Source: Halarcobacter bivalviorum
GTDB taxonomy: Bacteria > Campylobacterota > Campylobacteria > Campylobacterales > Arcobacteraceae
DNA length: 64,000 nt
Direction of reading: 5' to 3'
NCBI RefSeq assembly: GCF_003346815.1
Contig: NZ_CP031217.1
Location: forward strand, 868,001-932,000
The notes below the pieces were generated by a model, which did not search any database, was not told the origin of the DNA, and was given only the letters and a program-made list of their open reading frames with translations. Positions 58,355 through 60,014 of this stretch are shown here, in pieces. The number at the start of each line of letters is the position of its first letter. Position 1 is the first letter of the stretch. The position numbers and the translations under genes were made by a program.

Positions 58355-58377
58355 CAGACTCTTTAAAAAAGAGTCTG
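58355..58377. terminator. Hairpin shared by speB and the SRAP gene
   Basis: A perfect 10-bp stem (CAGACTCTTT with AAAGAGTCTG) with an AAA loop. The stop of the convergent SRAP gene (58363-58365) lies inside the stem and loop. Confidence 0.72.
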
Positions 58378-59049
58378 TTGTCCTACTTGAGTTTTTTCTA
58401 TTTTTTCAACACAAGATTTTTCATTAAAAAGTACTTTATTTACATTTGAACTAACTTCATAAAGCTCTAGTTTTTCATTTGCATATATTTTAAGCAAACT
58501 ATTTACTTCTTGAAGGTTATCACTATAAAGCCAAGGTGCAAAATCTTTTTTTTCTAAAACTACTGGCATACGATGGTGGATTTCTCCTAGTTTTTCATTT
58601 GCATCACAAGTGATTATAGCAGTAGTTACTATTTTCATATTTAATTCAATATCAAAATACTCATCCCAAATGCCTGCAAGTGCTAGATACTCATTTTTTA
58701 TATCTTTTACAAAATAAGGAGTTTTCTCTTTATCTTCTACTTTCCACTCATAAAAACCATTTATAGGAATAATACATCTTCTAAATCTAAAGGAGTCTCT
58801 AAAGGTTTGCTTTTCAAAGATTGATTCACTTCTTGCATTTATATTCATACTTTTTTTATCTTTTGCCCAAGAAGGTAAATATCCAAAGTGAGTATATAAA
58901 TAGTTTCCATTATTTAAAAGTGCAGGAATTGGAAGAGTAGGTGGAAGGTTATATTTTGGATTTAATTTTTGAATCATATCATTTTTTATAAGAGATTTAG
59001 CATCTTCTTTAAAAGATATATCATCAAAAATAGCTAAGCGACCAGGCAA
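58363..59049 (-). CDS. SRAP-domain protein (HMCES/YedK family) with Pro in place of Cys2
   Basis: A 228-residue SRAP protein. Family members normally start MCGR, where Cys2, exposed after Met removal, links to abasic sites in single-stranded DNA. Here the start reads MPGRLAIFD. The other active-site elements are kept: NARSES, INGFYEWK (catalytic Glu) and EIHHRMPVVL (catalytic His). The start is TTG 59049 with AGGAT upstream, and an in-frame TAA two codons before it excludes an earlier start. Expected role: protecting abasic sites at replication forks; the chemistry with an N-terminal Pro would differ (see findings). Confidence 0.88.
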   Translation of the reverse strand: MPGRLAIFDDISFKEDAKSLIKNDMIQKLNPKYNLPPTLPIPALLNNGNYLYTHFGYLPSWAKDKKSMNINARSESIFEKQTFRDSFRFRRCIIPINGFYEWKVEDKEKTPYFVKDIKNEYLALAGIWDEYFDIELNMKIVTTAIITCDANEKLGEIHHRMPVVLEKKDFAPWLYSDNLQEVNSLLKIYANEKLELYEVSSNVNKVLFNEKSCVEKIEKTQVGQQTLF

Positions 59050-59090
59050 AAATTATCCTATTTTCTAATAAGAAATAGTAAAACTATCTC

Positions 59091-60014
59091 TTATTTATTT
59101 TTATTGATTATTTCTCGTATCTCTTCTAATAATTCAACAGAAGCATCAATCTCAGCTTTTCTTATTGCAACACTTTCAATATTACAACCAACTGGAATAC
59201 CTCTTTTTTTACCATAGATAAATAAGTCTTCAAAAATATCTCTTGATAGTTTTACTGAATCTGTTAAAATATCACCAGACTCTTTTAAATCTTCTTCTAA
59301 ATAGTTTGGAATATTAATTCCTAACCATTTCATAAAATCAAGTGTTTTTGAACTTCCACAAGGAGTTAGTGTAAAAATAATTGGCACAGGCTCGATATTG
59401 TTTTCTTTTGCATATTTAGCATAATCAGTTAAAAATGTTTTTGCTGCATGTACATCATAAACACATTGAGTAATAAAATATTCACAAGAACTATTTTGTT
59501 TAGAAAATACTCTTAAATGTTCATCATGTTTTTTCATATGTCTTTCTGGAATAGCAATACCACCAAGGCAAAGATTATCATTTACTTCTTTTTTAATTGA
59601 GTAGGCTTCTTTTAAAGTAATATTTGTTTGTTGTTCATGACTTGCAGCTCCTACAAATACAGAGTGCACTTGTGTTGCTTTTGTACTTTCAAGCCAAGTT
59701 GCAAATTGCTTTGCAGTATAGTTACCTACTGCTCTATAAACTATTCTTGGAGTTTTTAACTCTTGTAGATAGTTTTTAGAGTATTCGCAAGGGTTTATTG
59801 TTTTAATAAAAGGAAAAGGTCTTTTTTCATCTGTTCTATCAGACTCATCTTGAATATCATATAATACAAGACCATCTACATTTAACATAGAGATTCTCTC
59901 TACATGTTTTTTAGCAATTTCCTTTATCTCTTCTTCAGTATGGTTTATTTTAGGTGGTGTAATTCCATAAAGTAAGATACCGTTTTCTTTATTTCTAATC
60001 TTGTCTGTTAACAT
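59091..60014 (-). CDS. Methylenetetrahydrofolate reductase-like protein
   Basis: A 307-residue TIM-barrel protein of the MTHFR superfamily: LLYGITPPKINHTEEEI at the start, DGLVLYDIQDESDR, GGIAIPERHMKKHDEH, FITQCVYDVHAAKTFLTDY (like the FFITQ-x-D segment of MetF) and IFTLTPCGSSKTLDFMKWLGI. It differs from canonical MetF in the first strand (EFFPP is absent). It could reduce methylenetetrahydrofolate or act on another C1-folate. Monocistronic appearance. Confidence 0.75.
   Translation of the reverse strand: MLTDKIRNKENGILLYGITPPKINHTEEEIKEIAKKHVERISMLNVDGLVLYDIQDESDRTDEKRPFPFIKTINPCEYSKNYLQELKTPRIVYRAVGNYTAKQFATWLESTKATQVHSVFVGAASHEQQTNITLKEAYSIKKEVNDNLCLGGIAIPERHMKKHDEHLRVFSKQNSSCEYFITQCVYDVHAAKTFLTDYAKYAKENNIEPVPIIFTLTPCGSSKTLDFMKWLGINIPNYLEEDLKESGDILTDSVKLSRDIFEDLFIYGKKRGIPVGCNIESVAIRKAEIDASVELLEEIREIINKNK

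Follow-up and report, generated by a model that had tools for sequence, protein, structure and literature searches.

Arcobacteraceae SRAP proteins with proline in place of the catalytic cysteine: possible N-terminal iminium chemistry at abasic sites

What purpose is served by an SRAP protein that is unable to make the stable thiazolidine crosslink? The question is raised by a minus-strand gene in a 64,000-nucleotide stretch of Halarcobacter bivalviorum DNA (NZ_CP031217.1, positions 868,001 to 932,000; the window). The second-residue cysteine of SRAP has been called absolutely conserved (PMC3765255). The original prediction held that this gene encodes proline there (CCT after a TTG start) and that an in-frame TAA excludes a longer form, and both points agree with the minus-strand sequence, ATA GGA TAA TTT TTG CCT GGT CGC, the first also with the relatives of the gene. 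Because the TAA lies two codons upstream with only TTT between, TTG is the sole possible start before the conserved PGR, and the product begins Met-Pro-Gly-Arg. The 228-amino-acid protein matches PF02586 at an E-value of 3.1e-55 (187.5 bits, cut-off 27.1, profile positions 1-214); Pfam gives SRAP alone, and no Fpg/Nei domain (PF01149), in the protein. An AlphaFold model from alignment A1 (mean predicted local distance difference test score 84, predicted template modelling score 0.83), which is weakest at residues 70-79, a span including Asn71, shows the SRAP fold: its significant PDB matches are all SRAP (2f20, HMCES, YedK and 8d2m, the C2A Schiff-base complex), with no Fpg/Nei fold among them. 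By profile and fold the window protein is homologous to SRAP, yet it is not a Cys2-type thiazolidine former. With YedK and HMCES (PF02586) it shares the fold, the domain length, the Asn/Glu/His site and, as predicted here, the residue following Met as the reacting group. The known members form a thiazolidine crosslink through Cys2, whereas no thiazolidine can form at residue 2 of the window protein because there is no thiol there.

We observed the same replacement throughout the family. SRAP was found in 30 of 104 Arcobacteraceae genomes by a family-wide genome search, and in each of the 29 loci whose start could be read the start codon (ATG 23, TTG 4, GTG 2) is followed by Pro-Gly-Arg, with Pro2 encoded by CCT in 16, CCA in 10 and CCC in 3. 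In the thirtieth genome the gene is split across two contigs, and its N-terminal piece likewise reads MPGR. Apart from this split gene, each genome with an SRAP gave one match, with no Cys2 SRAP copy beside the Pro2 SRAP, and a search of the complete 2.68-Mb H. bivalviorum genome for SRAP found no second one. Among the 14 closest pairs that were informative, the ratio of nonsynonymous to synonymous substitution rates (dN/dS) was 0.07-0.18. These comparisons indicate a genuine and conserved Pro2 SRAP in Arcobacteraceae that is subject to purifying selection.

A sequencing error or frameshift at Pro2 is ruled out by the 29 agreeing readable loci and the in-frame stop; the three synonymous proline codons and the dN/dS values argue in the same direction. 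Nor is this copy an inactive duplicate of a canonical MCGR protein, since neither the genome nor the family holds a second SRAP. An SRAP in decay or without catalytic activity, or a mistaken annotation, would fit the patchy occurrence of SRAP in the family (30 of 104 genomes) and an internal deletion in one member, but this explanation is largely refuted and we consider it highly improbable: the readable loci agree, the start position, synonymous proline codons and dN/dS point to selection, and the catalytic residues are kept in all but that one member. The member in question, L029 (G083, 1501-2073), carries Pro2 and an in-frame deletion that takes out HHRMP and with it the catalytic His, and its gene is probably inactive or decaying.

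In the rest of the class SRAP occurs in few genomes, and the three full-length proteins (L036, L037, L038) all have Cys2. A count of Campylobacterota starts, proposed in the original prediction, accordingly gave a divided answer: MPGR in every readable Arcobacteraceae locus, and Cys2 at the other readable starts. SRAP remnants were also seen in other Campylobacterota (L039 in G132 and L040 in G241); in L040 an internal deletion fuses the CGRVDIHD start directly to the HDRMP part.

Of 285 SRAP reading frames, a sample of fetched loci weighted to Arcobacteraceae and relatives of the query, 227 had Cys at residue 2, 40 Pro, 3 Ala, 3 Ser and 2 Thr; the residue was undetermined in the other 10. All five records checked from Actinomycetota, Bacillota, Chlorobiota, a phage and a gammaproteobacterium have Cys2. 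In the viral collection a DNA pattern for an ATG-started Pro2 SRAP had no match, compared to at least 120 for its Cys2 counterpart. Pseudomonadota contain a second Pro2 subfamily of 15 sequences, six in alignment A2 and nine further ones (L259, L262, L264, L268, L272, L284 and L323-L331). Like the window protein, its members start with MPGR and keep Asn, Glu and His; compared to the Arcobacteraceae proteins they are shorter, have no C-terminal QxxLF tail and sit on a separate tree branch. Within its class this subfamily was found in 4 of 289 genomes, and within its family in 11 of 121. Another SRAP accompanies it in 10 of these 11 genomes, the usual partner being a Cys2 copy, and a plasmid search for it gave no match above 60% identity. 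When the first four residues were left out of the tree, the Pro2 proteins of Arcobacteraceae grouped as a single clade (97 by the Shimodaira-Hasegawa-like approximate likelihood ratio test, SH-aLRT); closest to it is L038, a Cys2 protein from another Campylobacterota family (support 92). The best tree requires two Cys-to-Pro changes. A single Pro2 clade was not rejected by the approximately unbiased test (p 0.31), so that independence of the two groups is likely but not proven; on the tree, the Pseudomonadota subfamily is probably of independent origin. The literature searched contained no paper on a Pro2 SRAP.

The residues around the replaced cysteine have been retained. NARSES, NGFYEW and HHRMP, described as intact in the original prediction, align with YedK N75, E105 and H160, and at the positions of YedK N75/R77/E105/H160 we read N-R-E-H in 27 of 28 aligned Arcobacteraceae Pro2 proteins (the exception being L029) and in 6 of 6 aligned Pseudomonadota Pro2 proteins; the motifs are kept in all nine further sequences of that subfamily. 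SRAPs with Ala2 or Thr2 (5/5) read C-R-V/I-T/S at these positions, and those with Ser2 (3/3) read H-R-E-Y. These paralogues (Thr2 in L250 and L255; Ala2 in L260, L263 and L266; Ser2 in L267, L271 and L276) thus have neither the Asn nor the His, and the Ala and Thr forms are without the Glu as well; they are likely non-catalytic subfamilies, judging from these residues. Since the site is lost in the Ala2, Thr2 and Ser2 proteins and kept in the Pro2 proteins, no replacement other than proline was seen together with an intact site. This comparison, which involves few Ala, Thr and Ser sequences, supports a role of Pro2 as a working nucleophile.

How could such a nucleophile act? In YedK, it is the N-terminal amine of residue 2, and not its thiol, that bonds first with the abasic aldehyde; ring opening of the sugar needs Glu105 and His160, and closure of the thiazolidine by the thiol is the later step (PMC9436759). 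Through its N-terminal amine the C2A mutant of YedK gives a Schiff base that borohydride can trap (8D2M), and it cleaves DNA containing abasic (AP) sites (PMC9436759). An N-terminal iminium without a thiazolidine is therefore the best reading of the window protein. All that is required as far as the Schiff base is retained in a Pro2 protein; the thiol is what it lacks. Both proteins are without a thiol at residue 2; YedK C2A was made in the laboratory and has a primary amine, while the window protein is natural and selected, with a secondary amine predicted to give an iminium. The analogy with the N-terminal proline of Fpg/Nei, drawn in the original prediction, is chemically well founded for the same reasons: the amine of YedK bonds first, and YedK without the thiol is an AP lyase. 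These data also make the chemistry put forward there, a reversible Schiff base or AP-lyase activity, plausible. Fpg/Nei (PF01149) use an N-terminal proline nucleophile, which in the window protein is predicted to attack the abasic C1'; they differ in having an unrelated fold and family, and the window protein has no glycosylase domain.

We therefore think it reasonably probable, from sequence and from analogy with these enzymes, that the window SRAP is a working N-terminal-proline protein that forms an iminium, acts by lyase chemistry or reversible capture, and is tethered to the sliding clamp. Known Met-aminopeptidase specificity predicts removal of Met from Met-Pro-Gly, which would leave Pro2 at the N-terminus. 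Glu101 and His158, conserved and assigned their function by homology, would open the sugar ring of abasic sites in single-stranded DNA. The secondary amine of Pro2 would then attack C1' to give an iminium ion, as YedK C2A and Fpg/Nei suggest, and the adduct would either hydrolyse, a reversible capture, or promote beta-elimination, the AP-lyase outcome. Between these two, lyase activity in vitro appears somewhat more likely. Finally, the conserved C-terminal QxxLF peptide would tether the protein to the DnaN sliding clamp at forks.

HMCES carries a C-terminal motif for the sliding clamp PCNA. In nearly all Arcobacteraceae Pro2 SRAPs a linker that varies in length leads to a terminal GQLSLF or similar sequence, a feature that the original prediction does not mention. 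It is GQQTLF in the window protein, whose QQTLF agrees with the QxxLF consensus of DnaN clamp-binding peptides; the bacterial clamp-binding consensus has been given as QL[S/D]LF or QxxLF (PMC12309361). Ends of the Q..LF type were found in 29 of 33 Arcobacteraceae loci, four of which were fetched twice, from two collections, compared to about 0.1% of shuffled tails. They also occur in 32 of 92 Pseudomonadota Cys2 SRAPs (for example L177, L179, L185, L189 and L192), as against 0 of 131 viral ones. A scan of the H. bivalviorum genome for other proteins ending in QL[ST]LF returned only short chance frames. Because such ends occur in both Arcobacteraceae and Pseudomonadota, bacterial chromosomal SRAPs may be tethered to the clamp as HMCES is to PCNA, and the QxxLF tail may represent a general bacterial equivalent, as yet unreported, of the HMCES motif. 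The literature searched yielded no paper that connects SRAP with the bacterial clamp.

Several observations weigh against a clamp-tethered iminium protein of this kind. The clamp binding of the window protein is putative and motif-based. An endonuclease III-like gene (L356) is present in its own genome, and only 30 of 104 Arcobacteraceae genomes carry an SRAP, so that a lyase is not obviously needed. L029, although a Pro2 member, is without the His region. An AP lyase acting on single-stranded DNA at forks could moreover cause harmful breaks, which favours a reversible shield. In a stricter form of shielding, the protein would bind AP sites in single-stranded DNA non-covalently, perhaps opening the sugar, and protect them by occupancy with no productive Pro2 bond. 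The binding-pocket residues are kept, a clamp motif would suit a replication-linked protector, and active-site mutants of YedK bind DNA with reduced crosslinking (PMC9436759). We nevertheless regard such a shield as unlikely, because the replacement in the Arcobacteraceae clade is invariably Pro, with no drift to Ala, Ser or Thr as in the degenerate paralogues.

Another residue of the Pro2 proteins bears on whether a different stable crosslink is made. Cys148, which follows the conserved Thr147, occurs in 27 of 28 Pro2 proteins from Arcobacteraceae and in almost every Pro2 protein read from Pseudomonadota, compared to only 11 of 219 Cys2 proteins, all 11 within 89 from Pseudomonadota. The Pro2 iminium might be captured by the Cys148 thiol or, alternatively, by the backbone amide of Gly3 to give a 5,5-bicyclic aminal; an N-terminal proline does react with formaldehyde, by way of an iminium and the next amide, to give a stable bicyclic aminal (PMC9839752). 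The acetaldehyde adduct was degraded on isolation in the same study (PMC9839752), so substituted aldehydes may not yield stable aminals, and position 148 is Ile in the early-branching Pro2 member L027 and Thr in L331. Given these two absences and the presence of Cys148 in 11 of the 89 Pseudomonadota Cys2 proteins, a relocated thiol is conceivable from the alignment but only a lead. A different stable crosslink of either kind seems to us rather improbable. An iminium that is hydrolysed or leads to strand cleavage remains our preferred reading of the window protein.

The positions of the gene and its features are given in Table 1. The window SRAP gene follows an MTHFR-like gene, with which it forms a possible operon and which also precedes the SRAP gene in some close relatives (L008, L014 and L024). 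It does not lie beside uvrC. In 16 of 29 Arcobacteraceae loci (among them L004, L007, L010, L013, L017, L020, L022 and L027-L029) a divergent uvrC precedes the SRAP gene at a distance of no more than about 1.5 kb, and one example checked has the UvrC domains; this arrangement is perhaps the ancestral position. No Fpg/Nei-family gene (PF01149) was found in the 104 Arcobacteraceae genomes. We also considered that Pro2 might compensate for a missing AP lyase, an idea that is weak since the endonuclease III-like gene is present.

Table 1. Positions of the SRAP gene, its functional residues and its neighbour within the window
Feature	Coordinates	Strand	Basis
SRAP gene, Pro2 variant, 228 amino acids plus stop	58363..59049	-	PF02586 match
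Start codon TTG	59047..59049	-	ATG, TTG or GTG at the equivalent site in other loci
Pro2 codon CCT, replacing catalytic Cys2	59044..59046	-	Pro2 in 29/29 readable Arcobacteraceae loci
In-frame stop TAA upstream of the TTG start	59053..59055	-	Sequence
Shine-Dalgarno-like AGGA, six bases from TTG	59056..59059	-	Sequence
Asn71, equivalent of YedK Asn75	58837..58839	-	YedK alignment; invariant in alignment A1
Glu101, equivalent of YedK Glu105	58747..58749	-	YedK alignment; function from PMC9436759
His158, equivalent of YedK His160 (ring opening)	58576..58578	-	YedK alignment
C-terminal QQTLF, putative beta-clamp-binding motif (family consensus QLSLF)	58366..58380	-	Motif match
Cys148, after conserved Thr147	58606..58608	-	Equivalents in alignments A1 and A2
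MTHFR-like gene, upstream neighbour, 41-bp gap	59091..60014	-	PF02219, E-value 8.6e-07

The SRAP literature regards Cys2 as absolutely conserved and equates the function of the family with the thiazolidine crosslink. Tentatively, these may be natural clamp-tethered SRAPs in which a suicide thiazolidine crosslink has given way to iminium catalysis by the N-terminal proline, directed at abasic sites of single-stranded DNA at forks, the Cys-to-Pro switch having occurred twice with the ring-opening machinery kept; the product could be a turnover AP lyase or a protector with another adduct, by way of the Gly3 bicyclic aminal or Cys148 capture. The clade points to convergence on an N-terminal proline with Fpg/Nei, in bacteria whose family has no Fpg/Nei, and its conserved, putatively clamp-binding tail would be a bacterial counterpart of the link between HMCES and PCNA. 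In conclusion, the Pro2 clade is a natural experiment in which ring opening and Schiff-base chemistry are separated from thiazolidine formation.
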